Source: Deltaproteobacteria bacterium (GTDB taxonomy: Bacteria; Desulfobacterota; Desulfuromonadia; Geobacterales; Pseudopelobacteraceae). From it: a stretch of DNA of 37,109 nucleotides. The stretch is from the NCBI GenBank assembly GCA_021782545.1, contig JAJXUW010000010.1:1-37109 (forward strand), in the 5' to 3' direction. Numbering within the stretch: position 1 is the first letter of the stretch; each line of letters opens with the position of its first letter. Positions 1,792-26,816 of this stretch are shown one piece after another. The translations under genes and the position numbers were made by a program. Below the pieces are notes generated by a model. It ran no database searches and was not told the origin of the DNA. It saw only the letters and a program-made list of their open reading frames with translations.

Positions 1792-3210
1792 ATGAAACCG
1801 CTTTTTCTCAACCCTCCCACCTTCGAGGATTTTGACGGCGGCGCCGGTGCCCGCTACCAGGCCGCTCGCGAGGTAACCTCATTCTGGTATCCGGTCTGGC
1901 TATGCTATCCGGCCGGCATGATCGAAGGCAGCCGGGTGGTTGACGCCTCATCACAACGTCTCAACCTCGAGCAGTGTCTGGCTATCGCCAAAGATTTCGA
2001 CATGGTGGTGATGTACACCTCCACGCCGACGCTACGACTGGATATCGAAACCGCCCGTCGAATCAAGCAACAAAAGCCGCAAACCGTCACCGTCCTGACC
2101 GGCCCCCATGTCACCATGCTGCCGGAGGAGTCGCTGCGCCAGGCCGAAGGGGCGGTCGATATCGTCTGCCGCGGCGAGTTCGACTATACGGTGGTGGATA
2201 TCGCCGCCGGTACCCCCTGGGACCAGATCGCCGGTATCAGCTACCTCAAGGACGGCCAATGTCTCAGCACCCCCGACCGGGAAACCCCCACTGACCTGGA
2301 TGCGCTGCCGTTCACCTCGCAGGTCTACAAGCGTGATCTGCCGGTGGACGAATACGTGATTCCGCACGTCAAAAACCCGTACGTCTCGATTTACACCAGC
2401 CGGGGCTGCCCGGCCAAGTGCACCTTCTGCCTCTGGCCCCACACCTACTCCGGTCGCCGCATCCGTACCCGCAGCGCCGAAAACGTCTACCAGGAAGTGA
2501 AGTGGATCAAGGAAAACCTGCCCCAGGTGCGCGACATCATCTTCGATGACGACACCTTCTCCGCCAACCGCCGCCATGCCCGCGAAGTGGCCGCCAAAAT
2601 CGGGCCATTGGGCGTTTCATGGGTCATCAATGCCCGCGCCAACTGCGATTTCGAGACCCTCAAGATCATGCGCGACGCCGGCCTGCACCATGTGATCGTG
2701 GGGTATGAGAGCGGCAGCGACGAGATCCTCAGAAACATCAAGAAGGGGGTCACCCGCGAACGGGCGATCCAGTTCACCAAGGATTGCAAAAAACTGGGCA
2801 TCACCATCCATGGCGCCTTCATCGTCGGCCTGCCGGGCGAGACCCGCGAGACCCTGAAAGACACCATCGCCTACGCCAAACAGCTGGACCTCGACTCGAT
2901 CCAGGTCTCGCTCCCCTCCCCCTATCCCGGCACCGAGTTTTACAAAGAATGTGTCGCCAACGGCTGGCTGGTGTCAAACGCCTACATCGATGACACGGGG
3001 CACCAGATGTGCGTGGTCAGCTACCCGCACCTCTCAAACGAAGAGATCTTCAAGGCGGTGGAGGAGTTCTACAACAAGTTTTATTTCCGGCCCAGGTACA
3101 TCCTGCGCAGTATCGGCAAGATGATTATCGACAGCGAGATTCGCAAACAACGGCTTAAGGAAGGCAAACAGTACTTCGAGTACATGCGCAAACGCAAGCA
3201 GGCGGTATGA
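1792..3210 (+). CDS. hpnJ: Hopanoid biosynthesis radical SAM protein HpnJ
   Basis: This 472-residue B12-binding-type radical SAM enzyme has an N-terminal Rossmann-like domain (about 1-170; opening MKPLFLNPPTFEDFDGGAG is typical of HpnJ). The radical SAM core has Cys206, Cys210 and Cys213 in GCPAKCTFC, which bind the [4Fe-4S]/SAM cluster. In characterised bacteria HpnI adds a GlcNAc to bacteriohopanetetrol, HpnK deacetylates it, and HpnJ is needed to convert the sugar to the cyclitol ether headgroup. The ATG at 1792 is chosen because AAGGAG sits 6 nt upstream; an in-frame start at 1756 lacks one. Its stop overlaps the hpnK start (ATGA), indicating translational coupling. hpnI is not in the window. 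Confidence 0.9.
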   Translation: MKPLFLNPPTFEDFDGGAGARYQAAREVTSFWYPVWLCYPAGMIEGSRVVDASSQRLNLEQCLAIAKDFDMVVMYTSTPTLRLDIETARRIKQQKPQTVTVLTGPHVTMLPEESLRQAEGAVDIVCRGEFDYTVVDIAAGTPWDQIAGISYLKDGQCLSTPDRETPTDLDALPFTSQVYKRDLPVDEYVIPHVKNPYVSIYTSRGCPAKCTFCLWPHTYSGRRIRTRSAENVYQEVKWIKENLPQVRDIIFDDDTFSANRRHAREVAAKIGPLGVSWVINARANCDFETLKIMRDAGLHHVIVGYESGSDEILRNIKKGVTRERAIQFTKDCKKLGITIHGAFIVGLPGETRETLKDTIAYAKQLDLDSIQVSLPSPYPGTEFYKECVANGWLVSNAYIDDTGHQMCVVSYPHLSNEEIFKAVEEFYNKFYFRPRYILRSIGKMIIDSEIRKQRLKEGKQYFEYMRKRKQAV

Positions 3211-4073
3211 GACGCCTGATCGTCAATGCCGATGACTTCGGCCTCTCGTCCGGAGTCAACCGGGCGATTGAACAGGCCTGGCAGCGGGGCATCCTCACCC
3301 AGACGTCGCTTATGCCGGGGGGCGACGCCTTTGACGAGGCGGTCAGCATCGCCAGACGCAACCCCGGCCTGCAGATAGGGCTGCATCTTACGCTGGTGCA
3401 GGGCCGGCCGGTCCTGCCGCCGGAACAGGTGCCGGGGCTGGTTGGGGCGAACGGCTGCTTTCCTGACAACCCGGTACAGATGGGGATGCGCCTCTACTTC
3501 GACCGGGGGGTACGCCAACAGCTGCGTAACGAGCTGGAGGCGCAGATTATCAAGATCAAGGACACCGGCCTCCCGCTCTCGCATATCGACGGCCACCTGA
3601 ACATCCAGATGCATCCCACGGTCTTTGAGCTGTTGACCGAACTGATGCCACGGCACGGCATTAGCAGTTTCAGGATCACCCGCGAACGACTACGCCACAA
3701 CCTGCAGTTTGACCGCTCCCGGATCATCGGCAAGAGCGTGGAGCGGGTAATCTTCGGCGCTCTGTCCGACCAGGTCGAACCCAAGCTGCACCGGCTTGGG
3801 ATCACCCATGCCGCAGAGGTCAAGGGCGTATTCAACTCGGGCCGGATCACGGAGACCTATCTGCTGGCGATTCTGGACGGCCTTATGCCGGGCACCACGG
3901 AGATATACCTGCACCCCGGCTGCCTGCCGGATGCCGAAATAAGCCGCCGGATGCCCGACTACCTCCATGAGCAGGAGCTTGCCGCCCTGCTGTCGCCGGC
4001 GGTGCAACATCGGCTGGCTGACCTTGCCATCAGCCTGCGCAACTATCGGGGAGATGAGAAACCGTATGTTTAA
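3207..4073 (+). CDS. hpnK: Hopanoid biosynthesis deacetylase HpnK (YdjC/ChbG family)
   Basis: This 288-residue YdjC-family protein is predicted to deacetylate N-acetylglucosaminyl bacteriohopanetetrol, the step before HpnJ. The family metal site is visible: NADDFGLSSGVNRAI at the N-terminus (Asp9, Asp10), GLHLTLVQG near residue 60, and SHIDGHLNIQMHP near residue 127. The start overlaps the hpnJ stop by 4 nt. The 3' end overlaps the next gene by 8 nt under the preferred start. Being directly behind hpnJ distinguishes it from chitooligosaccharide deacetylases of the same fold. Confidence 0.9.
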   Translation: MRRLIVNADDFGLSSGVNRAIEQAWQRGILTQTSLMPGGDAFDEAVSIARRNPGLQIGLHLTLVQGRPVLPPEQVPGLVGANGCFPDNPVQMGMRLYFDRGVRQQLRNELEAQIIKIKDTGLPLSHIDGHLNIQMHPTVFELLTELMPRHGISSFRITRERLRHNLQFDRSRIIGKSVERVIFGALSDQVEPKLHRLGITHAAEVKGVFNSGRITETYLLAILDGLMPGTTEIYLHPGCLPDAEISRRMPDYLHEQELAALLSPAVQHRLADLAISLRNYRGDEKPYV

Positions 4074-4506
4074 GACCATTTTACTGATGATCCTGGCCGT
4101 AACTGCCGGTACCGTGGGCGACCTCCTGCTGGCCAAAGGGATGAAGGAGCTGGGTGACCTCTCCACCATGAATCTGCGCGGCATCATGGAGGTGGCGCTA
4201 CGGGCCATGACCGAATGGAAGATCGTGGCGGGGACTGCCATGCTGGCCCTGTTCTTCTTTCTCTGGCTGGCCGTCCTTTCCTGGGAGGACCTATCGGTGG
4301 CGCTGCCGCTCCAGGCCCTCAACTACGTCCTGGTCGCCCTGCTGGCCAAATACATCCTGCATGAACAGGTGTCACCGCTACGCTGGGCCGGCATCACGCT
4401 GGTCTGCATCGGCGTCATGCTGATCACCAAGAGCAGTGCCGACAGCAAACAAACAGCCACAGCGGTGACGACAACAGTAAAAATAGAATCAAGAACAGGA
4501 GGTTAG
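4066..4506 (+). CDS. Single-domain EamA/SMR-like membrane transporter linked to hopanoid genes
   Basis: This 146-residue inner-membrane protein has four predicted membrane helices, at roughly residues 3-21, 47-68, 75-96 and 103-121, and a hydrophilic Thr/Lys-rich C-terminal tail. It resembles half-size EamA/DMT proteins such as the ArnE-type lipid flippase subunits and small multidrug transporters, which work as dimers. The start is uncertain: ATG 4066 has GGGGAG 12 nt upstream, while ATG 4054 lies directly on that GGGGAG, so 4066 is preferred. It overlaps hpnK and stops 2 nt before proC. A role in moving a glycosylated hopanoid or its precursor across the membrane is inference from position only. 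Confidence 0.75.
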   Translation: MFKTILLMILAVTAGTVGDLLLAKGMKELGDLSTMNLRGIMEVALRAMTEWKIVAGTAMLALFFFLWLAVLSWEDLSVALPLQALNYVLVALLAKYILHEQVSPLRWAGITLVCIGVMLITKSSADSKQTATAVTTTVKIESRTGG

Positions 4507-4508
4507 CC

Positions 4509-5330
4509 GTGCTCCAAGACCACACTATCGGCTTTATCGGCGGCGGCAACATGGCCGAGGCCATCATCAAAGGGCTTATTGCGGGCGGCGTGGCTCCGCG
4601 TAACATTCTGGCCGCCGACCCGGTATTGGACCGGCGCGCACACCTGGCTACCACGCTGCAGATACGCACCAGTGACGACAACGGTGAAGTTGCCAAAGAG
4701 ACTGACCTGATCGTATTGGCAACCAAACCTCAGGTGGCAGCCAACGCCCTTTCGGCACTGGAGGGCGGCATCACACCGGACAAGCTGGTCATCTCCATCA
4801 TGGCGGGCATCTCAACCACCTTCGTTGAAGAGTCGCTGCGCAACGGTTGCCGCGTGGTGCGGGCCATGCCGAACACGCCAGCCTTGGTACAGACGGGTGC
4901 CACCGCCATCTGCGGCGGCCGTCGGGCGACCGCGGAAGACATGGAAATGGCCCGGCAGATATTCAATCTGGTAGGCACGGTCTACCAGGTGCATGAAAGG
5001 CAGATGGATGCCGTGACCGGCGTCTCTGGCAGTGGTCCGGCCTATGCCTTCTCCTTTATCGAAGCCCTGGCCGATGCCGGGGTCAAAAACGGTCTGACCC
5101 GCGACGTGGCCAACGGCCTGGCCGTCCAGACCGTGCTGGGGTCTGCCCGACTGCTGCAGGAGAGCGGCGAACACCCGGCCGTGCTGCGTGACCGGGTGAG
5201 TTCTCCGGGCGGCACCACCATCGCCGCCATGCATGCCCTTGAAAACGGCCGCTTCAACGGATTGATCATGGATGCGGTGGACGCCGCGGTCAAACGCTCC
5301 AAAGAGCTGGCAGGTATCAAACTGCTCTAA
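4509..5330 (+). CDS. proC: Pyrroline-5-carboxylate reductase
   Basis: This 273-residue cytosolic enzyme performs the last step of proline synthesis, reducing pyrroline-5-carboxylate with NAD(P)H. The Rossmann motif GFIGGGNMAEAIIKG is at the N-terminus. The ProC signature region is clear near residues 172-240 (VSGSGPAYAFSFIEALADAG and RDRVSSPGGTTIAAM). The start is GTG at 4509, with AGGAGG 6 nt upstream; the previous gene's stop is only 2 nt away, so it is translated from the hpn operon message. Proline synthesis has no known link to hopanoids, so the operon may be only a transcriptional convenience. Confidence 0.95.
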   Translation: MLQDHTIGFIGGGNMAEAIIKGLIAGGVAPRNILAADPVLDRRAHLATTLQIRTSDDNGEVAKETDLIVLATKPQVAANALSALEGGITPDKLVISIMAGISTTFVEESLRNGCRVVRAMPNTPALVQTGATAICGGRRATAEDMEMARQIFNLVGTVYQVHERQMDAVTGVSGSGPAYAFSFIEALADAGVKNGLTRDVANGLAVQTVLGSARLLQESGEHPAVLRDRVSSPGGTTIAAMHALENGRFNGLIMDAVDAAVKRSKELAGIKLL

Positions 5331-5426
5331 ATTTGAACGCATGCACGGTCAAAGGCCACCCGGCCGAAGTTTCGCATACCGTTGTCAGTACGTATCGGAC
5401 CATACAACAAGCAGAGGGAGAAATCG

Positions 5427-7238
5427 TTGTCAGCAGATGAACCGGTGTTGATGCAGGGGAATGAGGCTATGGCCCGCGGCTTGGTGGAACATGGCTGTGT
5501 GGTGGCAGCATCCTATCCGGGCACTCCCGCTTCCGAAATCCTGTCAGCTGTCGATGCCTGGCGCAAACAGGAAGGGGTGGCAATGCACGTCGAATGGGCG
5601 GTCAACGAGAAGGTGGCCTTCGAGATCGCCTATGCCGCCAGCCAGACAGGGCTGCGCGCCGCCACCGCCATGAAGCAGGTGGGATTGAACGTCGCCTCGG
5701 ACCCCCTGATGAGCGCCGCCTACTTGGGCACCATCGGCGGGTTTGTCATCATCAGCGCCGACGACCCCGGCCCCCATTCCTCACAAACCGAACAGGATTC
5801 CCGCCTGATGGCGATGCAGGCCAAGCTGCCGATACTGGACCCCGCCTCGCCAGCCGAAGCCCGGGAACTGGTTGGCTGCGCCTTTGCCCTGTCCGAGGCG
5901 TTTGAATTGCCGGTGATGCTGCGCCCCACCACCCGCGTCTGTCACGCCTGCCAGGATATAACGCCAGCGCCGGTCAATACGCTCGAACGCAAGGCCGATT
6001 TCCATAAGGATCCGCAACGCTGGGCCGCCACGCCAAAGTTTCGCTATGAACTTCACCGCGCACTGAATCATAAGCTGTCTCAAATTGCCGCCTATGCGCC
6101 CACCGCCCCCCGCTGTCTGAACCCGACCACCCAAAGTAGCCGGGCCGTGGTCGCTTCCGGGGTTGCTGCGGCCCATGCCCTGGAGCTGATCACGACCATG
6201 GGGCTGCAGGAAGAGTTCGTCTTCTATCAGGTTGTACAGCCTTACCCGCTGCACAGCGACTTTATGGCGGAGATTCGCAGCAGCTACGACGACGTGCTGA
6301 TTTTGGAAGAGACGGCCGCGGTGATCGAGATGCAGCTGTGTGACTATCGCACCGTCCGCGGCAGGCTGTCCGGTGATCTGCCTGATGCCGGTGAACTGCT
6401 GCCTGAGATCATTGAACGCATCCTGTACCGTTTCATCGGTCAACCGGTGCCGGAACCGGTTGGAACCACTGCCGCAGGCGGGAGGCGTCCGACGCTCTGT
6501 CCTGGCTGTCCGCACCGCGCCAGTTTCTATGCCATTAAAAAGGCCGCTCCGCGAGGGCTGTATCCGAGCGATATCGGCTGCTACACCCTGGGGAGCAACC
6601 TGGGGGCGGTGGACACGGTGCTGTGCATGGGGGCGGCCATCGGCCAGGCTGCCGGCTTCTATCAGGCCTACCGGGTCACCGGACAACAACGGGATATCGT
6701 TGCCACGATTGGCGATTCGACCTTTTTCCATGCCGGTATCCCGCCACTTATCGACGCCGTGGTACAAGGGGCCCGCTTCGTCCTGGTGATCCTGGATAAC
6801 AGTACCACCGCCATGACCGGCAACCAACCGACACCGGCCCACGGGACACCCGACGGTACGGCGGTCGATATCGCCTCCATTGTGACCGGCTGCGGCGTAT
6901 CGTTCTGCAAAAACGGCGACCCGCTGGAGCTGCCGGCCTTCACCGATCTTATGCGGGAGGCGCTGGCCTTCTCGCGCGACCACGGCATTGCGGTGGTAAT
7001 CGCCCAAAGCCCCTGCCTGGTCGACAAAAGCGTGCGCCATGCCAGACGCCCGCAGGCCCAGATAACGCCTGCGGCCTGCACCGGCTGCCGGCACTGCACC
7101 ACCCAGTTTGAATGCCCTGCCCTGGTGTACGACGAGACCAGCAACAAGGTAACGGTCGACAGCATGCTCTGCAGTGGCTGTGGGGTCTGCCGTACCGTCT
7201 GCCCTGTGCAGGCCATCGGCCAGAAGGAGCAGCCATGA
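5427..7238 (+). CDS. iorA: Indolepyruvate ferredoxin oxidoreductase, alpha subunit
   Basis: With IorB this enzyme oxidises aryl-pyruvates (from Trp, Phe or Tyr transamination) to aryl-acetyl-CoA and CO2, passing electrons to ferredoxin. The 603 residues hold the pyrimidine-binding half, the thiamine-diphosphate half (GDSTFFHAGIPPLIDAV and DNSTTAMTGNQPTP) and a C-terminal two-cluster ferredoxin (CTGCRHC with a fourth Cys, then CSGCGVCRTVCP). The likely start is TTG 5427, because AGAGGGAG lies 6 nt upstream; another in-frame TTG at 5382 has no clear ribosome site. The stop overlaps iorB (ATGA). The 96-nt gap after proC leaves open whether it has its own promoter. Confidence 0.93.
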   Translation: MSADEPVLMQGNEAMARGLVEHGCVVAASYPGTPASEILSAVDAWRKQEGVAMHVEWAVNEKVAFEIAYAASQTGLRAATAMKQVGLNVASDPLMSAAYLGTIGGFVIISADDPGPHSSQTEQDSRLMAMQAKLPILDPASPAEARELVGCAFALSEAFELPVMLRPTTRVCHACQDITPAPVNTLERKADFHKDPQRWAATPKFRYELHRALNHKLSQIAAYAPTAPRCLNPTTQSSRAVVASGVAAAHALELITTMGLQEEFVFYQVVQPYPLHSDFMAEIRSSYDDVLILEETAAVIEMQLCDYRTVRGRLSGDLPDAGELLPEIIERILYRFIGQPVPEPVGTTAAGGRRPTLCPGCPHRASFYAIKKAAPRGLYPSDIGCYTLGSNLGAVDTVLCMGAAIGQAAGFYQAYRVTGQQRDIVATIGDSTFFHAGIPPLIDAVVQGARFVLVILDNSTTAMTGNQPTPAHGTPDGTAVDIASIVTGCGVSFCKNGDPLELPAFTDLMREALAFSRDHGIAVVIAQSPCLVDKSVRHARRPQAQITPAACTGCRHCTTQFECPALVYDETSNKVTVDSMLCSGCGVCRTVCPVQAIGQKEQP

Positions 7239-7753
7239 CCTCGCAACAGCTGATCATATCCGGCGTCGGTGGCCAGGGGATTCTCTTCATCACCCGGCTA
7301 TTGGCTGAAACTGCCATTGCCAAAGGGCTGCCGGTACTCACCTCCGAGACCCACGGCATGGCACAACGCGGGGGGATTGTGATCTCTCACCTGAAGATTG
7401 GTGATTTTGCCAGCCCCTTGATACGTCCCGGCCAGGCCGACGGACTGATCGCCCTGAGCACGTCAAATGTTGCGTTGCACCGCTCGTTTTTGCGTACAGA
7501 TGGTTGGATCGCCGCCAACAGCGCACAACCGTTGTGCCTTGCGGAGCCCCCTCAGGTGATCACCATCGATGCCGACCAGATCGCCCGCAACATGGACAAT
7601 CCGCAGGCCGTCAACCTGATTGTGCTGGGAAAGGCACTGGCGAGCAGCCGACTGTTCTGCACGGTAGACGAGATGATGGCGGTGATCAGTCGCCACCTGT
7701 CCGGCAGGCCTGCTCAGCTGGCTGGGGCACTGGCGGCCGTCACTGCCGCTTAA
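7235..7753 (+). CDS. iorB: Indolepyruvate ferredoxin oxidoreductase, beta subunit
   Basis: This 172-residue protein matches the gamma-type domain of 2-oxoacid:ferredoxin oxidoreductases: ISGVGGQGILFITRLLAETAI at the N-terminus and SETHGMAQRGGIVISHLKIG near residue 40. Both are CoA/subunit-interface motifs of the family. It is somewhat shorter than the usual length of about 190 residues, with the C-terminal helices slightly reduced. The start overlaps the iorA stop by 4 nt, with AAGGAG just upstream, so the two subunits are translationally coupled. Confidence 0.92.
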   Translation: MTSQQLIISGVGGQGILFITRLLAETAIAKGLPVLTSETHGMAQRGGIVISHLKIGDFASPLIRPGQADGLIALSTSNVALHRSFLRTDGWIAANSAQPLCLAEPPQVITIDADQIARNMDNPQAVNLIVLGKALASSRLFCTVDEMMAVISRHLSGRPAQLAGALAAVTAA

Positions 7754-7771
7754 ACACGGAGTTGCGCGCAG

Positions 7772-9067
7772 ATGTTCAAACGTTTTCCACCTAAAATTAC
7801 AACCTCTGAGGCACTGACGGCGCATCAGCTGGCAGGCCTCCAATGGACCGTTCAGCATGCCTTTGACTATTCCTCCTTCTACCGAGAGCACCTGACAGCA
7901 GCCGGGATAACGCCGGGGGACATCACCTGCCTGGACGACCTGCGCCGGCTGCCGTTCACCACGGCGGCCGATCTGGCCGCGGACTACCCCTTCGCCCTGC
8001 GGGCGGCCCCGTTTGATGACCTGGTACGGATCCACGCCTCATCCGGTACCACCGGCAAACGCAAGGTGCTCTGCTACACCCGCAAGGATATTGCGGACTG
8101 GCAGGATATGTTTGCGCGCTGCTATGAACTGGCCGGTCTTACCTGCCAAGATCGCGTACAGATAGCTGTCGGCTATGGTCTCTGGACCGCCGGCATCGGC
8201 TTCCAACAGGCCTGCGAACACTTTGGCGCCCTCGCGGTGCCGGTCGGACCCGGCAACCTAGAACTGCAGACCGCCTTTCTGATCGACCTGCAGTCCACGG
8301 TCTTCTGCTGCACCGCCTCCATGGGGCTTCTTTTAGCCGAAGAGGTACAACGGCGGGGACTGCGGGACAAGCTTAACCTGAAAAAGATCATCCTGGGGGC
8401 CGAGCGTTCCAGCGCGGCCATGCTTGACACCATGCGCCACTGTCTTGGTATCGACGAGATATACGACATAACCGGCCTCACCGAGCTCTATGGCCCTGGT
8501 GCCGGACTGTCCTGCCGCGAAGACAACGGGATTCACTACTGGGCGGATTATTATATCCTCGAGGTCCTCAATCCACTCACCTTGAAACCGGTTGCCCCTG
8601 GCGAGATCGGCGAGATGGTCTTCACCACCTTGTGCAAAGAAGGAGCCCCGCTGATACGCTACCGCTCCCGCGACCTGACACGGCTTTTGGAGGGTCCCTG
8701 TCCCTGCGGATGCATGCTGCCCCGCCATGACCGCATCCTGGGCCGTTCTGACGACGTGGTCATCTTCCGTGGCGTCAACATCTATCCGGGCCAGATCGAC
8801 GAGGTGCTTCGGCAGATACCGGGTATCGGCAGCGAGTATCAGCTCCTGCTCGATCATACGCCGGATGGACGGGATGCCATGCTGGTGCGTGTCGAACGGA
8901 GCCGAAACGGTGGCGGTCCGCCTGATGAACTGCTGACAAGGCTGATTATCGGGGGGATCAAACATACCATGCTGGTAAGCTGCAACGTTGAGTTGCTGCA
9001 ACCGGGGACCCTGCCCCGCTCTGAAGGAAAGACAAAACGGGTCTTCGACAGGCGCTGTTTTGAGTAG
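7772..9067 (+). CDS. Phenylacetate-CoA ligase family protein (PaaK-like)
   Basis: This 431-residue AMP-forming acyl-CoA synthetase of the PaaK type activates aryl-acetates with ATP and CoA. The P-loop-like motif ASSGTTGKRKV is near residue 90, the adenylate-binding segment DITGLTELYGPG near residue 230, and the C-terminal hinge and CoA region is in RSDDVVIFRGVNIYPGQID. It begins 18 nt after iorB and is almost certainly cotranscribed, so indole-, phenyl- or hydroxyphenyl-acetate are the likely substrates. In anaerobes the pair can run toward degradation of aromatic amino acids or, reversed, assimilation of aryl-acetates. Which applies is not visible here. Confidence 0.9.
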   Translation: MFKRFPPKITTSEALTAHQLAGLQWTVQHAFDYSSFYREHLTAAGITPGDITCLDDLRRLPFTTAADLAADYPFALRAAPFDDLVRIHASSGTTGKRKVLCYTRKDIADWQDMFARCYELAGLTCQDRVQIAVGYGLWTAGIGFQQACEHFGALAVPVGPGNLELQTAFLIDLQSTVFCCTASMGLLLAEEVQRRGLRDKLNLKKIILGAERSSAAMLDTMRHCLGIDEIYDITGLTELYGPGAGLSCREDNGIHYWADYYILEVLNPLTLKPVAPGEIGEMVFTTLCKEGAPLIRYRSRDLTRLLEGPCPCGCMLPRHDRILGRSDDVVIFRGVNIYPGQIDEVLRQIPGIGSEYQLLLDHTPDGRDAMLVRVERSRNGGGPPDELLTRLIIGGIKHTMLVSCNVELLQPGTLPRSEGKTKRVFDRRCFE

Positions 9068-16712: not shown

Positions 16713-18176
16713 CTACGAAATTACTTTAACGGCGGCCTGTGCCAGTTGCAACAGATAGGAAGGCACAACGCCGGGGATTAAAGTGCCAAGGAACGAAACA
16801 AGCAATGCAAGGGAGACAGGAGCGGTCAGACTAACCCAGCCAAACTCTTCTTCAGCCGGTTTCATATACATATAGACCATCACCCGCAGGTAGTAGTAGG
16901 CCGACGCAGCGCTGTTCAGGACACCAATCACGGCCAGCCAGATGTACCCAGCCTCAACCGCGCCGGAGAACAGGTAAAACTTGCCGATAAAGCCAGCCGT
17001 TGGCGGAATGCCAGCTAAAGAAAACAGGAACAGGGTCATGATGGCTGCCAGAGCGGGACGCTTGTGCCCCAGACCGGCAAAATCCTGTACATTACCGTTG
17101 GTCTCGCCCTGTTTGGCAACCAAAACAACAATCGCAAAGGCACCGATGTTCATAAAGGCGTAGGACAGCATATAAAACAGGATACCGGAGGTGCCGGTCG
17201 TGTTGGCTGCAGCAAAGCCTACCAGAGCGTAACCTGCGTGCGCGATGGATGAATAAGCCAGCATTCGTTTGATGTTGTCTTGACGCAGAGCGGTTATATT
17301 ACCAACCGTCATGGTCAATACGGCCAGAATCCACAGCAGGTCACTCCAATCAGCCTTCATCGAAGGAAACGCTACCAGGAACATACGCAGGAAGGCTGCG
17401 AAGGCCGCCGCCTTGGGACCAGCGGACATAAGTGCGGTAACCGGCGTGGGAGCGCCCTCATAGACATCAGGCGTCCACATATGGAATGGCACGATGGCGA
17501 TCTTGAAGGCGAAACCGGTCAGGATCAGCAGGGCGCCAATCAACAGCAGGATATCGGGTTGCCCCATCTGCGACGCAACGGCTGCAATCTTGGCGATACG
17601 GGTGTAGCCGGTCGCACCGTACACCAATGCCATACCATACAGCAGGAAACCTGTTGAGAAGGCGCCCAGCAGAAAATACTTCAGACCTGATTCGTTCGAT
17701 TTTACGTTTGCACGATTGAATCCGGCCAGCACGTACAATGAGATAGACATCAATTCAAGACCCAGAAAGATGGTCATCATATCGGTGCCAGAGGCCATCA
17801 GCATCATGCCGACGGTGGTGAAGAGCACCATGGGATACAGTTCTCCCTGGTTGCATCCCTCACGCTCCATATACTGATCACTGATAAGCACCGCCAAACC
17901 GGCCGCAATGACGAAGATCAGCTTGAAAAAGATGGCGAAGTTATCCAGCACCACTGAACCGCTGAAACCATCAACATTCTGCCCCCAGCCACAAGCAGCT
18001 GTATAACCTGCCGCCACAAGGCCGGCCAGACTGAGCCAGGCCAAGTATCCCTTGGATTTGGAGGGTACGAAGACGTTAACCAGCAACAGTGCCATACCTA
18101 CCACCGAGAGAATGATCTCCGGCATGATGGTGGCAAGGTTAATCGTCTGAAAAAGTTGGGCTACATTAATTTCCAT
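16713..18176 (-). CDS. nuoN: NADH-quinone oxidoreductase subunit N
   Basis: This 487-residue inner-membrane, antiporter-like subunit of complex I has about 14 membrane helices. The conserved lysine-bearing segment FKIAIVPFHMWTPDVYEGAPTPVTALMSAGPKAAAFA and the following KRMLAYSSIAHAGYALVG are clearly visible. It contributes one of the proton channels. It is the last gene of the 14-gene operon, 33 nt after nuoM, and a terminator follows. Normal length. Confidence 0.97.
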   Translation of the reverse strand: MEINVAQLFQTINLATIMPEIILSVVGMALLLVNVFVPSKSKGYLAWLSLAGLVAAGYTAACGWGQNVDGFSGSVVLDNFAIFFKLIFVIAAGLAVLISDQYMEREGCNQGELYPMVLFTTVGMMLMASGTDMMTIFLGLELMSISLYVLAGFNRANVKSNESGLKYFLLGAFSTGFLLYGMALVYGATGYTRIAKIAAVASQMGQPDILLLIGALLILTGFAFKIAIVPFHMWTPDVYEGAPTPVTALMSAGPKAAAFAAFLRMFLVAFPSMKADWSDLLWILAVLTMTVGNITALRQDNIKRMLAYSSIAHAGYALVGFAAANTTGTSGILFYMLSYAFMNIGAFAIVVLVAKQGETNGNVQDFAGLGHKRPALAAIMTLFLFSLAGIPPTAGFIGKFYLFSGAVEAGYIWLAVIGVLNSAASAYYYLRVMVYMYMKPAEEEFGWVSLTAPVSLALLVSFLGTLIPGVVPSYLLQLAQAAVKVIS

Positions 18177-18209
18177 TGAACAGTCCTCCAGGAACGTTGA
18201 CTCTATTGG

Positions 18210-19787
<1,578 letters not shown>

Positions 19788-19824
19788 CGAATCTGCTCCT
19801 TTATACAGAATGCGAAACGGAACG

Positions 19825-21828
19825 TTACTTAAACACGTAGTAGGCGACGATCGCGACCACACCCAGCGCCATTGACCAGGCGTAGTTGTAGATCAGACCG
19901 GACTGCATGTAGCGGATAACACCGCCAAAGGCCATAACGGTACTGGCGACACCATTTACCACTCCATCCACAACCAGAACGTCAAAGCCTTTCCAAAGGA
20001 ATCTACCCAAGGCCTTGCAGGGATTGACAATCATGAAGTCATACAACTCATCGATATACCACTTGTTGTAGACCGCACGATGGAGTGCCGGGAAGGCGGT
20101 GGTGAATTTCTTAGGCAGTTCGGGGTTTATCAGATAGAGCAGAGCGGCAATAGAGATACCGATCAGGGCAATCACCACCGAGGCGGCCATCATCCCCCAC
20201 TCCAGGGTGTGGCTGTGCTGTTCGGGGTGGACATGGGCCAGCATATACTGGTTGGCATTTGCAAAGACCGGCTCAAGGTATTGATCAAGATAGTTGGGCA
20301 CCCCCCCGAACAGATCACCGATCAGCTTAGGCAGACCAAGATAGCCACCAAGGATGGAGAGCAAAGCAAGGACAAGCAACGGAATCACGATCACCATCGG
20401 CGACTCGTGCAGGTGCTTCTCAGCCCCCTCCTTGATCCGGCAGGTACCGAAAAAGGTCATGAACACCAAACGGAACATGTAGAAGGCGGTCAGCAGCGCC
20501 GCACAGGCGCCCATTCCCCACAGGACAATGTTCAGGTCACCGTGCAACGGATTGGAGAAGGCCTGCCAGAGGATTTCATCCTTTGAGAAGAAGCCGGAAA
20601 AACCTGGTATACCGGCAATCGCGATGGTGGCAATCAGGAAGGTCAGGAAGGTAAGCGGCATGTGTTTCCGTAAGCCGCCCATGTTGCGCATGTCCTGGGC
20701 ATCATCATGGGAATGAACATGGTGCAGGGCGCCATGCATGGAGTGGATCACCGCACCGGAACCGAGGAACAGACAGGCCTTGAAAAAGGCGTGGGTCATC
20801 AGGTGGAAGATACCGGCAGTAAAGGCCCCCACCCCCATGGCCAGGAACATGTAGCCCAGCTGTGAGACGGTGGAGTAGGCCAGCACCCGCTTGATATCGT
20901 TCTGTGCGGTGCCGATGGTGGCGGCAAACAGGGCGGTACAGCCACCGACCAGTGCGACGACGGTCATGGTTTCAGGTGAACGGATGAAGAGGTAGCTCAT
21001 CCGTCCGATCATATAGACCCCGGCGGTCACCATGGTGGCGGCGTGGATCAGGGCGGAAACCGGGGTAGGACCTTCCATGGCGTCCGGCAACCAGGTGTAC
21101 AACGGAATCTGGGCGGACTTACCGGTGGCCCCCAGGAAGAAGCAGAGGGTAATGACGGTTACGACCCCTCCGGTCGGCAGCAGGTTGGCATTCTTGGCTA
21201 GTTCGGTGAACTGGATAGTCCAGATGTTGTTGGTCTGTCCCATGTACCAGAACAGGGTGAAGGTACCCAGCAGGAAACCAAAGTCACCGACCCGGTTCAT
21301 CACAAAGGCCTTCTTACCTGCGTCTCCGGCGGACTTTTTGTGAAAATAGTAACCGATCAAGAGGTACGAACAGAGGCCAACGCCCTCCCAGCCGACGAAC
21401 ATCAGCAACAGGTTGTTGCCGGTTACCAGGAGCAGCATGGAGAACACAAACAGGTTCAGGTAGGCAAAAAAGCGATAGAAGCCTTCCTCACCGTGCATGT
21501 AGCCGATGGAGTAGACATGGATCAGAAAGCCGATACCGGTCACCACCAAAAGCATCAAACAGGACAGCGGATCAATCAGAAAGGCAACGTCGGCATTAAA
21601 GTGGCCAGCCGTGATCCATGTGAAGATCTTGACGTTGATCACACGCTCTTCTGCAGGGAGGCCGATCAGCTTAAGGAAGGTCATGACGGATACGATGAAG
21701 GAACAGAGTACCGCAAAGGCACCGATCGAGCCGATGACCGTCTCATTCTTGATCTTCTTCCCCAGCAATCCGTTGATCAGAAAACCGATCAGGGGAAACA
21801 GGGGTATCAGCCACACGTTGTCGAACAT
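19825..21828 (-). CDS. nuoL: NADH-quinone oxidoreductase subunit L
   Basis: This 667-residue protein is the largest antiporter-like subunit, with the long C-terminal horizontal helix that ties the membrane arm together. Conserved motifs are [57 protein letters not shown] and [25 protein letters not shown] His-rich loop ([13 protein letters not shown]) lies in the middle. AAAGGAG precedes the ATG. The 74-nt gap to nuoK is the longest in the operon. Confidence 0.97.
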
Positions 21829-21902
21829 TGAGCTACTCCTTTATTCAAATTCGTCTTAGCAAGGTACCGGTTCAGATAGCAGCACTACGTCACACTATGC
21901 CA

Positions 21903-22205
21903 TTACCACTTCATCAGGTTTGCGTCGTCAACGTCAATCGACTCGCGGTTGTTAAAGAATGCGATAAACAGGGCTAAACCGACCGCAGCCTCGGCTGCGG
22001 CAACCGTCATAATGAAGAAGACAAATATCTGGCCGTCGAGGTTCCCCAAGTGGCGGGAAAGGGCGACGAAGGTCAGGTTGACGGCATTCAGCATCAGCTC
22101 GATGCACATAAACATGACGATTGCGTTTTTACGGGTCAGAACCCCAATAGTGCCGATGGAAAACAATACGGCGCTGACAAGCAGGTAATTGGTCAGGTTA
22201 TCCAT
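21903..22205 (-). CDS. nuoK: NADH-quinone oxidoreductase subunit K
   Basis: This 100-residue protein has three membrane helices. The conserved membrane glutamates are in [16 protein letters not shown] and in [18 protein letters not shown]; both take part in coupling. Two start codons are possible: ATG 22211 leaves only 2 nt after GAGGTG, while ATG 22205 leaves 8 nt and gives the usual [15 protein letters not shown] opening, so 22205 is preferred. Confidence 0.96.
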
Positions 22206-22218
22206 TATCATGACACCT

Positions 22219-22731
22219 CTAGGAAAGTTTTTTCTTGGCCAGGATCACTGCCCCAACCATGGCGGCCAGCAACAGAATCGAGGTGACCTCAAACGGCAAC
22301 AGGAAGTCGGTAAACATGACAGCACCGATCAGCTCGGTGTGACCAATCTGATTGATGACGTCAGAGGTCACCGGGCCAGCCAGCATGGCCACCTTACCGC
22401 GGGTCAGGAACAGGACGGACAGAAGCAGTGTCACAATACCGGTCACAGTGCCGAGTGCGACCTGATGGACATGCTTCTTGTTGGCATCAACACGAATATT
22501 CAGCAGCATGATGGTGAAGACGATCAACACCATAATGGCGCCAGCATAGACAATGATCTGGACAGCGGCCATGAAGGGGGCATCCAGCATGGCGTAGTAG
22601 GTCGCCAGACAGAAGAAGGTCAGCACTAGGGAGAGCGCACTGTTGATCGGGTTCTTGCAGGTAACGACCAGCAGCGCCGATACAACGGCCACTATAGTGA
22701 CAATGGCGAAGAAAATAGATGAGATATCCAT
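22219..22731 (-). CDS. nuoJ: NADH-quinone oxidoreductase subunit J
   Basis: This 170-residue membrane subunit has five predicted helices. [35 protein letters not shown] contains the conserved Tyr/Gly helix with a pi-bulge that relays conformational change during proton pumping. AAAGGAG lies 9 nt before the ATG. It is separated from nuoI and nuoK by about 13 nt on each side. Confidence 0.96.
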
Positions 22732-22744
22732 GTACTGCGCTCCT

Positions 22745-23152
22745 TTATTTCTTTTCTAAAAGTCGTTCCTTGGTGAAGACAAAGTCTTCTCGCCGATAAT
22801 TGGCCAGCTCAAACTCACCGGTCATTTTGAGCGCGTCCACCGGGCAGGCTTCCACGCAATAACCGCAGAAGATACACCGCAGGATGTCTATCTCGTAACG
22901 AGCCGCGTACTTGTCATGATTGGCATCCTCCCCGGCTTCAACGGTGATGCATTTTGCGGGGCACACCGTCGGGCAGAGGTAACAAGCCACACACTTGGCC
23001 TTGTCATGGGACACCTTCAGCGCATGCAGGCCACGGAAACGTTCTGCCACCTTAGGGCGTTCCTCAGGGTACATCAAGGTAATCGGTTTCTTGAAGAGGT
23101 GCCCGAGGGTAATCTTCATTCCTTGCATGATCGGTGTTATCGGATTCGGCAT
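22745..23152 (-). CDS. nuoI: NADH-quinone oxidoreductase subunit I
   Basis: This 135-residue peripheral-arm ferredoxin subunit carries clusters N6a and N6b: the first motif is CVACYLCPTVCP near residue 54 and the second CIFCGYCVEACP near residue 93. The N-terminal amphipathic segment (GMKITLGHLFKKPITLMYPEE) anchors it to the membrane arm. It is slightly shorter than the roughly 160-180 residues of many homologues, mainly at the C-terminus. Confidence 0.96.
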   Translation of the reverse strand: MPNPITPIMQGMKITLGHLFKKPITLMYPEERPKVAERFRGLHALKVSHDKAKCVACYLCPTVCPAKCITVEAGEDANHDKYAARYEIDILRCIFCGYCVEACPVDALKMTGEFELANYRREDFVFTKERLLEKK

Positions 23153-23195
23153 GACATCATCCTTTATATCGTTGTTCTAAGTTAGAAGCTGCGGT

Positions 23196-24278
23196 TTAGC
23201 CAAAGAAGCTGTAGAACCCAAAGTAGCCAGCAAGCGCGGTCAGCACGATCAGTACCAAGGCCAGAGGCAGCAGCAGCTTCCAGCCAAGTTTCATCAACTG
23301 GTCATAGCGGTAGCGAGGCAGCGTGGCCCGGATCCAGATGGCGATGAACATCAGGAAGTAGACCTTGATGACGAAGTAGACCACGGACAGTGCGGGGATC
23401 GCCTTGGACATGGGGCCGTCCCAGCCGCCCAGGAACAAGGTGGTGGTAATGGCGCTGACCGTCACCATGTTGGCATATTCAGCCATGAAGAACATGGCGT
23501 ACTTCATCGAGGAGTATTCGGTACAGAAACCGGAAACCAGTTCGGATTCGCACTCCGGAAGGTCAAACGGTGTCCGGTTGGTCTCGGCCAAGGCGCAGAT
23601 ATAAAAGAGGACGCCGGCGGCAAAGGTCATCGGGTTGCTCCAGATGAACCACTTCATCCCTTCCTGGGCCTTGACGATTTCCTGCAGCGACAGGGAGCCT
23701 GCCAGCATGAAAACCGGTACGATAGCCAGACCGGCCGCCAGTTCATAGGAAACCATCTGGGCAGAGGAACGTAGGCCACCTAACAGTGAATACTTGCTAT
23801 TTGAAGACCAGCCCGCCAAGACAATACCGTATACCCCCAGCGAGGCCATGGCGAGGATGTACAACACACCGACGTTCAAGTCAAACACACGACCGATGGC
23901 GGTGTCATAGTAACCTGCGATCTGCAGCGGCACCTTGTAGCCCATCACCTCAATGGTGTCACCGAACGGAATGGCCGCAAACGTGATAAAAGCAGGAACC
24001 AAGGCTATAAGCGGTGCGACCAGATAGGCAAAGGTGCTGGCCTTCTCAGGGATGATCTCTTCTTTGAAGAAAAGTTTGAGACCGTCGGCAATCGGCTGCA
24101 ACAGCCCCTTGGGACCGACCCGGTTAGGTCCAATCCGCACCTGCATGAAGCCAATGATCTTACGCTCGGCGTAGGTGGCGTAGGCCACTGTCAGCAGTAC
24201 AAATACAAATGCACCGAGTACCTTGGCAACCATGGCGATGTAATAATACAGCGGCAGTCCAAGAATTACGTTGTCCAT
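23196..24278 (-). CDS. nuoH: NADH-quinone oxidoreductase subunit H
   Basis: This 360-residue membrane subunit, with about 8 helices, forms the quinone chamber with NuoB and NuoD. Hallmarks are MQVRIGPNRVGPKGLLQPIADGLKL, the acidic loop AETNRTPFDLPECESELVSGFCTEYSSMKYAMFFMAEY and RATLPRYRYDQLMKLGWK. GAAGGAAAGAGGG provides the ribosome site. Normal length. Confidence 0.97.
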   Translation of the reverse strand: MDNVILGLPLYYYIAMVAKVLGAFVFVLLTVAYATYAERKIIGFMQVRIGPNRVGPKGLLQPIADGLKLFFKEEIIPEKASTFAYLVAPLIALVPAFITFAAIPFGDTIEVMGYKVPLQIAGYYDTAIGRVFDLNVGVLYILAMASLGVYGIVLAGWSSNSKYSLLGGLRSSAQMVSYELAAGLAIVPVFMLAGSLSLQEIVKAQEGMKWFIWSNPMTFAAGVLFYICALAETNRTPFDLPECESELVSGFCTEYSSMKYAMFFMAEYANMVTVSAITTTLFLGGWDGPMSKAIPALSVVYFVIKVYFLMFIAIWIRATLPRYRYDQLMKLGWKLLLPLALVLIVLTALAGYFGFYSFFG

Positions 24279-24325
24279 CGGTCCCTCTTTCCTTCGTAAG
24301 TAGCGTTAAGAGTACTGAAAACTCG

Positions 24326-26776
24326 TTATTTCGACACGGTTACGCTGGTGACCACAGCACCGGACCAGACCTGGTTGATGGCGAAGTGGTACGGGGCAAA
24401 GGCAACACCTTCCGGCATGCGCAGACTGATGCGGGCCTGCAGCGTTATGCTGCCCTCATTCGAGGCGACGGTCACCTCTACGCCGTCGGCGATCTGCAGC
24501 CGCGCTGCATCGGCGTACGACAGCTCAAGGTACCCTTCGGGACAGGCTGCAACCGTGCCTTCGCCATAGTGCGACATGGTACCACAGTGATACAGGGCGG
24601 CTCCGGTCAACAGGGCTATCTTGCCGGCCTCTACCTGTGTAGCAGCGGCTACCGGCAGCACCAAGGCCGGTTTTACAGCAACCGGTGCAAAGGCGCCGTC
24701 ATCGGCCAGGGCAGCATACTCGATCCCTGCGTAGGCGGGGATTTGTGCAAAGGCGTCAGCCGGTGTGGTCGGTGCCTGACCACCTAAGGCGCGAATCAGG
24801 TCACCGTACACCGTGAACTCGGTACGGCTTTGACCAACAGCCGGGATGGCCGGGGTGACCTTCTGCACGCGACGATCTGTGGCCGTATAGGTACCTTCCT
24901 TTTCGGCGTAGGAACATACCGGCAGTACGACGTCTGCCTGCTGGGCCGTCTCGGTCAGAAACAGATCAGCCACCACCAGGAAATCAACCTTTTGCAAGGC
25001 GTCCTTTACTTTGGACTGCCCCGGGTATGAAACGACCGGGTTCTCACCTGCCACCAGCAGGGTCTTGATGCTGCCGCTCAGGCAGCCATCCAGAATCTGC
25101 TGGGCGGTCATACCGCCGTTGCCCGGCACAAAACCGACATCAACGGCGCCTTGGCTGTTATTCTTCTCTTGCAGCACCAGCAGGCCGGATCCCTCCTTGC
25201 CCAGCTTACCGGCCAGAATGGCCAGGTTTGCAGCGGCATGGGCCAGCTGGGCAGTATGTGCGGGATATGCGAGCCCGACTGGGAATACGATCAGCGCTTT
25301 TTCCGCAGCCGCATAGGTGCGGGCCAGCTGTTTGATGGCATCGGCGCTCACGCCGCACTGTGCGGCGACCTGCTCAGGCGCGAAGGCAGCCAGACCGGCG
25401 GCCAGTTCGGCATACCCGGTAACCGATGCGGCAGCACCGGCGAGATTCTCGTCGATCAGCACCTTGGCAATGGCGTTCAACAGGGCGACCTCGCTACCAG
25501 GCTTGTGCAGCAGCGTGTTGGCCTTGGGCAGTTTGCCCAGTTTACCGCGTTTGTCGGACAGGATCTGGAGATCTACCCCCTTGTTCTTGACCGCCAAGTT
25601 GATCTCAAAACCGACCACCGGATGGGTCTCATAGGCATCGCTCTTGATCACCAGCAGCAGGTCGCTCTTCTGGATATCCAGAATCGACGAAGGTGCAGCT
25701 GCCACGCCGAAGCTCTTTGCCAGGCCCTCGGTCAGCGCAGCATGCGCGTAGCCGGCTGAATGGTCAATATTGGCGCTGCCGACCTGCTGGGTCATCAGCT
25801 GCTTCAGCAGCACCAGCTCTTCGTTGGTCATGCGGGGCGTAGCCAAGGCGGCGGCGCTGGCACCTGCCCCTTTCAGCCTGTTTGCCACCAGCTCAAGGGC
25901 CTCGTCCCAACCAGCCTCGACCAGCTGACCGTTTTTACGGATAAGCGGTGACTTGAGACGTTTGTCGGAGGAGATGAACTGATAGCCGAAGCGGCCGCGC
26001 ACACAGAGCTGACCGTTGTGGAATCCCTGATTTTCGTCATAGACGGTGGTCAGGACCTTGTTGTCCTTGACCCCCAGGGTCACGCTGCAGCCGGTGCCGC
26101 AGTAACCGCAGACTGACGTTTTCTTCTGCAGCGCCCAGAAGCGGGACTTGAACTTGAAGGGACGGGCGAGAAGCGCACCGACCGGGCAGACGGAGATACA
26201 GGAACCGCAGAACTCACAGGAGAGCGGCCCGTCAAACTCGGTGCCGATCTTGGTTTCAATACCACGGCTGATAAAGGTCAACGCACCACGTGATACGATC
26301 TCGTCACAGATACGCACGCATTTACCGCACAGGACGCAGCGGTTCTGGTCGCGTTCGATCAGCGGATTGTTATAGTCAATCACGTGATGGAACTTTTCAT
26401 CGTTCAGACGGTTCACGTTGACCTTGTGGTCATAGGCCAGGTTTTGCAGATCGCAATCCCCACCCTTGTCGCAGACCGGGCAGTCCAGGGGGTGGTTCAG
26501 CAACAGGAGCTCAAGCACCAGTTTGCGTGCCTTCTCCACCGGGGGGGTACTGCTGCGTACGATCATACCCTCGGTGACCGGTGTGGTGCAGGCCGGAATC
26601 AGACGACCCTTCATCTGCTCAACTTCGACCAGACACATCCGGCAGGCACCAAACGGCTTCAGCTTCTTGTCATGGCACAGGATCGGGATGTTGATGCCGG
26701 CGGCCTTGGCTGCCTCGTAAATGGTTGCGTCCTTCTCAACCTGGACCTGCTTGTCGTCTATTGTCAGAGTGACCAT
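24326..26776 (-). CDS. nuoG: NADH-quinone oxidoreductase subunit G
   Basis: This 816-residue peripheral-arm subunit has an N-terminal 2Fe-2S domain (CHDKKLKPFGACRMC and a later Cys), the His-Cys3 cluster site (HPLDCPVCDKGGDCDLQ) and two 4Fe-4S sites (CVLCGKCVRIC, CEFCGSCISVCP). A molybdopterin-oxidoreductase-like region begins with CGYCGTGCSV and a distal Cys in QLCVRGRFG, which would hold an extra N7-type cluster. The C-terminal third is Ala-rich and diverged. The start is ATG 26776 with GAGG upstream; TTG 26779 directly before it is less likely. Confidence 0.96.
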   Translation of the reverse strand: MVTLTIDDKQVQVEKDATIYEAAKAAGINIPILCHDKKLKPFGACRMCLVEVEQMKGRLIPACTTPVTEGMIVRSSTPPVEKARKLVLELLLLNHPLDCPVCDKGGDCDLQNLAYDHKVNVNRLNDEKFHHVIDYNNPLIERDQNRCVLCGKCVRICDEIVSRGALTFISRGIETKIGTEFDGPLSCEFCGSCISVCPVGALLARPFKFKSRFWALQKKTSVCGYCGTGCSVTLGVKDNKVLTTVYDENQGFHNGQLCVRGRFGYQFISSDKRLKSPLIRKNGQLVEAGWDEALELVANRLKGAGASAAALATPRMTNEELVLLKQLMTQQVGSANIDHSAGYAHAALTEGLAKSFGVAAAPSSILDIQKSDLLLVIKSDAYETHPVVGFEINLAVKNKGVDLQILSDKRGKLGKLPKANTLLHKPGSEVALLNAIAKVLIDENLAGAAASVTGYAELAAGLAAFAPEQVAAQCGVSADAIKQLARTYAAAEKALIVFPVGLAYPAHTAQLAHAAANLAILAGKLGKEGSGLLVLQEKNNSQGAVDVGFVPGNGGMTAQQILDGCLSGSIKTLLVAGENPVVSYPGQSKVKDALQKVDFLVVADLFLTETAQQADVVLPVCSYAEKEGTYTATDRRVQKVTPAIPAVGQSRTEFTVYGDLIRALGGQAPTTPADAFAQIPAYAGIEYAALADDGAFAPVAVKPALVLPVAAATQVEAGKIALLTGAALYHCGTMSHYGEGTVAACPEGYLELSYADAARLQIADGVEVTVASNEGSITLQARISLRMPEGVAFAPYHFAINQVWSGAVVTSVTVSK

Positions 26777-26816
26777 CAAAGACCTCGATTGCTGGAATTA
26801 AACGTTGGTACCGTGA

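Follow-up and report, generated by a model that had tools for sequence, protein, structure and literature searches.

Does a small membrane-protein gene lodged between hpnK and proC belong to the machinery that decorates hopanoids, the sterol-like lipids of bacteria, and if so, what could it contribute? The question arises in a stretch of 37,109 nucleotides (nt), hereafter the window (contig JAJXUW010000010.1, positions 1 to 37,109 of the forward strand, GenBank assembly GCA_021782545.1), from a deltaproteobacterium of the order Geobacterales, family Pseudopelobacteraceae. The draft genome spans 2.05 Mb in 131 contigs and is 84% complete. The gene, which we call P0001, follows two genes of composite-hopanoid synthesis. 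According to the available part of PMC12583986, HpnI puts N-acetylglucosamine on bacteriohopanetetrol (BHT), HpnK deacetylates this to BHT glucosamine, HpnJ turns BHT glucosamine into BHT cyclitol ether, and delivery of hopanoids to the outer membrane falls to HpnN. We find that the linkage of P0001 is strong, and that the gene is very probably a lineage-specific part of the composite-hopanoid set (HpnI-HpnK-HpnJ) in the Geobacterales and one other family. As the best single explanation we propose, with modest confidence, that P0001 is a small ArnE-like flippase of aminosugar-hopanoids. The genes at the locus are:

1792..3210, plus strand: hpnJ (TIGR03471, 756.3 bits against a cut-off of 577.6; Pfam B12-binding and Radical_SAM)
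3207..4073, plus strand: hpnK, YdjC-type deacetylase (TIGR03473, 330.7 bits against a cut-off of 232.6; Pfam YdjC)
4066..4506, plus strand: P0001, half-size EamA / ArnE-like four-helix membrane protein, candidate aminosugar-hopanoid flippase
4509..5330, plus strand: proC, pyrroline-5-carboxylate reductase (TIGR00112, 303.8 bits against a cut-off of 196.75)

A first-pass annotation, made from the sequence alone, had placed the gene between hpnK and proC, and this was confirmed: P0001 overlaps hpnK by 8 nt, hpnK overlaps hpnJ by 4 nt, and the P0001 stop codon is separated from the GTG start of proC by 2 nt. The reading frame is open over 4066-4506 and encodes 146 amino acids. Its ATG at 4066 lies within the 3' end of hpnK, with an alternative in-frame ATG upstream at 3967, and the Met1 encoded at 4066 is kept in 80 of 81 orthologues. 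In ten pairwise comparisons the proportion of nonsynonymous differences (pN) was 0.03-0.10 and that of synonymous differences (pS) 0.43-0.76; with pN well under pS, P0001 is a real gene under purifying selection. The annotation had also spoken of a hopanoid operon. This stands for hpnJ and hpnK, both over their cut-offs, and not for hpnI, which the assembly has on contig C57, outside both operon and window. A hopene cyclase gene is located on contig C23.

We examined 80 loci from the GTDB collection holding the best orthologues, obtained from a contig scan by clade-specific peptide patterns, which could return only close relatives and therefore gives no evidence of absence elsewhere. The gene directly upstream of P0001 is hpnK in 79 of them; the gap is at most 60 nt in 77 loci by mapping, and two further loci have gaps of 59 and 231 nt by reading frames. 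In the one locus where it is not (L149), P0001 is present as a second copy; the other copy in that metagenome-assembled genome, 311FN.001, is linked. At positions 5983-6381 of that locus, the unlinked hpn-type EamA half-protein lies near an open reading frame (ORF) resembling an M48-type peptidase by eye. Upstream hpnJ is found in 74 of the 80 loci, and in four of the other six the contig begins less than 1 kb upstream. The linkage of P0001 to hpnK and hpnJ is thus conserved. Adjacency to proC is local, occurring in only part of the loci, so that we excluded proC as a member of the conserved unit: in family f1 the run of genes continues into proC, and no proC match was detected near the cluster in the mapped loci of families f2, f3 and f4. 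A draft of the same genus (L287, G008:C186) holds a broken second copy of the P0001 gene at about 4727-4963, seen as two short matches in different frames. Cultured carriers of the gene include Trichlorobacter thiogenes ATCC BAA-34 (L088) and Citrifermentans bremense R1 (L134).

Presence and absence of P0001 also track hpnJ within the order. The set comprised 117 Geobacterales genomes, or 94 good ones after dropping 23 that were less than 90% complete or more than 5% contaminated. Two genomes with weak paralogue matches (G055 and G062, E ~1e-4) were scored as lacking the orthologue, and hpnJ fragments below cut-off were scored absent. Of the 117 genomes, 101 have the orthologue and 97 an HpnJ over cut-off: both are found in 94, P0001 only in 7, hpnJ only in 3 and neither in 13. 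For the good genomes the corresponding counts are 81, 2, 2 and 9 (Fisher, 2.7e-9), although co-occurrence p values are optimistic because of shared ancestry and the joint loss of neighbours. Contig ends account for three of the four discordant good genomes: the contig ends within hpnK in G020 and 92 nt past the hpnJ match in G084, and in G064 the hpnJ fragment lies at contig base 6. The fourth, G089, has hpnJ without adjoining hpnK or P0001. There (L079, 10621-12066), hpnJ is followed by a large regulator-like ORF, with no hpnK or EamA half-protein beside it. When P0001 is set against hopene cyclase in the good genomes, 83 have both, none P0001 only, 3 the cyclase only and 8 neither; against HpnI, the values are 79, 4, 3 and 8.

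For the phylum, we used an even sample of 247 genomes and defined an orthologue as a match to the P0001 profile above 180 bits. Ten genomes carry one, and in all ten both hpnJ and hpnK exceed their cut-offs. Seven are Geobacterales and three belong to family f55, in which the orthologues are 47-50% identical and again lie after hpnK. Presence of P0001 implies hpnJK, and the converse fails. Among plasmid records, 14 have weak P0001 relatives (best 32.6% identity) and 20 have hpnJ-like matches, with no record in common; the best, from Acidisarcina, has no annotated hpn gene within 4 kb, and the Cupriavidus plasmid stretch has no gene annotation. In five loci of families f12 and f55 (L203, L206, L208, L210 and L212), a radical S-adenosylmethionine (SAM) protein of about 356-434 amino acids is encoded between hpnJ and hpnK. 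The one in L203 is over no NCBIfam cut-off (best 71 bits, BlsE); possibly these lineages use the protein as an additional enzyme on the head group.

Could P0001 be a neutral passenger, held in place by conserved gene order with a function unrelated to hopanoids? The f1 run extending into proC does show that unrelated genes can remain adjacent. However, the link to hpnK persists where adjacency to proC breaks in other families, it recurs at the identity given above in f55, a family distant within the phylum, and absence of P0001 coincides with absence of hpnJ and the cyclase. We therefore consider this explanation very unlikely.

The protein itself is, as first described, a half-size four-helix EamA-type membrane protein. 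It passes Pfam EamA (PF00892) with 40.2 bits against a cut-off of 28.2, over residues 50-121, and is half-size since the match covers the second part of the profile only. A full-size EamA transporter has two EamA repeats, and paralogues of that size (about 300-350 amino acids, two matches) occur in the same genomes. P0001 is a single half, 126-151 amino acids long across the 81 orthologues, of which 68 have 126-127. The sequence has four hydrophobic peaks, and the structure models show four long helices and one short. There are 51 positions identical in at least 80 of the 81 orthologues, including Asp19, Glu74, Asp75, Glu100 and Arg106. The same genus and its near relatives have an additional hydrophilic stretch of about 20 residues at the C terminus (window 4440-4506), which most orthologues lack. 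EmrE is the best match to the predicted fold (Z 11.6, root-mean-square deviation 3.7, 109 residues), where for helical bundles a Z below about 13 may reflect a common arrangement. The fold search used only the model with a predicted local distance difference test score (pLDDT) of 74.7; a deeper alignment led to a weaker model, with 69.8, and the structure alignment (A3) held 51 of 67 non-redundant relatives. A search of solved structures with the single P0001 sequence gave nothing better than E 0.19, and the P0001 profile matched EmrE chains at E ~6e-4.

Sequence comparison places P0001 on the ArnE side of its relatives. Its profile matched E. coli ArnE with a probability of 96.6 (37% identity over the C-terminal 65 columns) and ArnF with a probability of 5. 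Curated hidden Markov models were less one-sided, ArnF matching 13 of 13 and ArnE 11 of 13 members of alignment A2 at E <= 0.001. The best curated match of P0001 is ArnE, at 44.2 bits against an NCBIfam cut-off of 92 (NF011625), and ArnF reaches 35.4 against 99 (NF002816). Being under both cut-offs and following hpnK, with no arn operon for lipid A modification, P0001 was rejected as a member of ArnE/ArnF proper. Below the orthologues, the phylum's highest-scoring relatives lie at 70-93 bits; relatives at 79-93 bits adjoin an ArnT-like transferase in G214 and G157 and an ArnB-like aminotransferase in G342. The tested neighbours of four other relatives are not arn genes (L272 and L278, OmpA-type; L275, CbiQ-type; L279, class-III aminotransferase).

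Given ArnE-like relatives, some beside ArnT- and ArnB-like genes, P0001 might flip another sugar-lipid, undecaprenyl-linked or some other aminosugar lipid, its linkage reflecting shared aminosugar chemistry. The distribution of the gene makes this improbable in our view: hopene cyclase is present in all 83 good genomes bearing P0001, and P0001 in none of the 8 lacking the cyclase. Moreover, the conserved neighbours are hpnK and hpnJ, and we identified no ArnT-like gene in the window operon.

In a tree of these sequences all 15 hpn-linked rows form one clade (support 99/98); its deeper order is unsure because of the long branches of ArnE, ArnF, EmrE and L279. The comparison alignment held 12 of the 81 Geobacterales orthologues and was cut at 135 residues, with the N-terminal extensions of three relatives trimmed. 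A review of small multidrug resistance (SMR) proteins (PMC9574504, in its available part) describes the helix-1 Glu and the Tyr-switch sites as important for transport, and ArnE/F as a lipid-transporting SMR subtype in which Asn often replaces the Glu. P0001 has neither the central helix-1 Glu, or the Asn of the lipid subtype, nor the helix-3 Tyr switch. At the position of EmrE Glu14, the 15 hpn-linked rows have Gly (12) or Val (3), followed four residues on by an invariant Asp, in place of the mostly Asn and Gln pair of the ArnE-like relatives; at the position of EmrE Tyr60 all 15 have Leu in place of Tyr. Asp19, Leu80 and Gln83 are present in all 81 orthologues. Asp19 and Leu80 occur together in 15 of 15 hpn-linked rows, and the other relatives have Gln or Glu and Tyr or Phe at these sites (11 of 11). 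With its key residues replaced, P0001 was excluded as a classical drug SMR. The parallel with ArnE-type subunits drawn in the first-pass annotation is upheld by the ArnE sequence match and the relatives in arn-type neighbourhoods, and does not extend to membership of ArnE/ArnF or of the classical SMR subtypes.

Transport of many small molecules is known among EamA and SMR relatives. P0001 could accordingly be imagined to export a cation or a small by-product in SMR-like fashion, merely co-transcribed with hpnJK, and its predicted SMR-like fold and the invariant acidic residue in helix 1 are points in favour. To this idea we give very little credence. SMR proteins have four helices, an EmrE-like fold and about 110 amino acids. 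Compared with EmrE and Gdx, the first loop of P0001 is longer, and the Glu position, the Tyr switch and the Trp of the drug and cation SMRs are all replaced; nor does mere co-transcription fit a linkage to hpnK that fails in only one of 80 loci.

Another protein is found in the slot after hpnK elsewhere. This is HpnL, whose function is not established according to the available part of PMC12583986. In all four plasmid loci examined (Mycetohabitans, Caballeronia, Paraburkholderia and Methylobacterium) the hpn cluster has HpnL or an HpnL-like protein and no P0001 match; from L163, L164 and L166 one protein each was run against TIGR03476, and all three exceed the cut-off. Such a protein occupies the slot of P0001 directly after hpnK in L163, in L164 (an HpnL-like protein, unscored) and in phylum genome G291. 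Like P0001, HpnL appears to be a membrane protein of a family with flippase members, but it is unrelated in sequence and longer (340-353 amino acids against 146), and TIGR03476 is not among the P0001 matches at E <= 1. No Geobacterales genome (0 of 117) has HpnL over cut-off. In the phylum sample, every one of the 16 hpnJ genomes outside the Geobacterales has an HpnL-like protein, sub- or over-cut-off, against 11 of the 224 others, and none of the 10 genomes carrying P0001 is among the 4 that have HpnL over cut-off. This lack of overlap and the slot of HpnL after hpnK suggest that the two proteins are alternatives, in a picture blurred by sub-cut-off HpnL-like proteins.

We therefore suggest the following course of events. 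HpnI, HpnK and HpnJ would build BHT-glucosamine and the aminocyclitol ether on the cytoplasmic leaflet, the side to which their enzyme families point; P0001, as an antiparallel dimer, would allow the headgroup, with its amine, to pass into the periplasmic leaflet; and HpnN-type transport would take the hopanoid onward from there. P0001 would be suited to moving this headgroup because the product has a free amine and the protein an acidic residue in helix 1, and it would fill the place held by the unrelated HpnL in several other hpn clusters. The scheme resembles that of ArnE/ArnF, the flippase of undecaprenyl-phosphate-aminoarabinose, likewise half-size proteins with four helices: in both, an aminosugar would be put onto an isoprenoid lipid by a glycosyltransferase, N-deacylated and then flipped. 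The neighbourhood of P0001 differs, and no paired second subunit was seen in the four genomes searched. With HpnN, P0001 would share a part in hopanoid traffic (PMC12583986, in its available part), at a different step and as a member of another family. In the open-licence literature we found no paper that connects hpnJ or hpnK to an EamA/ArnE-like gene. A bolder version, which we advance tentatively as a possibility, is that P0001 founded an inner-membrane flippase family for cationic aminosugar-hopanoids, derived from an ArnE-like flippase by an Asp19 one helix turn along and loss of the Tyr switch, and replacing HpnL in the Geobacterales.

Several observations weigh against the flippase proposal. 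In the phylum sample, 13 of the 23 hpnJ genomes are without the orthologue, most of these having hpnK over cut-off; P0001 is thus a lineage-specific component, and the co-occurrence with hpn genes that the first-pass annotation had put forward as a check holds in one direction, the hpn-linked clade being essentially never found without hpnK/hpnJ. Eleven of the 23 have neither the orthologue nor over-cut-off HpnL, so that hpnJK has no fixed partner in either protein. In three Geobacterales genomes with P0001 and hpnJ (G043, G057 and G059), hpnI is missing at E <= 1e-50, and the joint loss of adjoining genes can be one event. Full-length HpnL-like proteins below cut-off (120-154 bits) occur in 12 of the 117 Geobacterales, and the three f55 genomes carry both P0001 and HpnL-like kinds, which together rule out a clean swap of P0001 and HpnL. 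One neighbour was tested at four of the sub-cut-off loci, and none was an hpn gene:

L281: EmrB-type major facilitator superfamily (MFS)
L282: EmrB-type MFS
L286: sulfotransferase
L288: CDP-alcohol phosphotransferase

The protein raises its own difficulties. Both models are of moderate confidence, and the residues on which SMR transport depends (helix-1 Glu or Asn, helix-3 Tyr) are replaced in the hpn-linked proteins. In all 81 orthologues loops 1 and 3 carry 4-6 Lys/Arg and the opposite side 1-2, a bias which favours a single fixed orientation. No second half-size EamA over cut-off was found in G000, G002, G006 or G081 (partners of other families were not searched for, and G000 is 84% complete). 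Charge bias and missing second half together put in doubt a partner for an antiparallel dimer.

A rival reading makes P0001 an accessory membrane subunit without transport, which anchors HpnK and/or HpnJ, taken as soluble, at the inner membrane beside their lipid substrate, or aids their reaction. In its favour, the charge bias points to one fixed orientation, the overlap with hpnK is tight in most loci, and the missing Tyr switch of SMR proteins and Asn of their lipid subtype would fit a fold kept without a transport cycle. However, HpnK and HpnJ exist without P0001 in the 13 phylum genomes noted above and in Burkholderiales loci, and the invariant Asp19 with many helix residues seems to exceed the needs of an anchor. 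We regard the accessory role as unlikely, if the most serious of the rivals to a flippase.

The remainder of the window offers a few further genes. Downstream of proC, within 5382-9067, there is an indolepyruvate ferredoxin oxidoreductase alpha gene (609 bits, slightly below the cut-off of 650.9) and, further on, a phenylacetate-CoA ligase-like gene. A run of complex I (nuo) genes occupies 16713-28589 on the minus strand, with matches to NuoN, NuoL, NuoH, NuoG and NuoF.

The available part of PMC12583986 assigns no protein to the crossing of the inner membrane by decorated hopanoids. If P0001 is a dedicated flippase that has replaced HpnL, then HpnL would also become a candidate hopanoid flippase; if the two are alternatives, each supplies a hypothesis for the other. 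A single small gene with a clear residue signature makes the inner-membrane step testable in environmental anaerobes. Hopanoids are widely used biomarkers, and genes that control their cellular location help in reading the lipid record.
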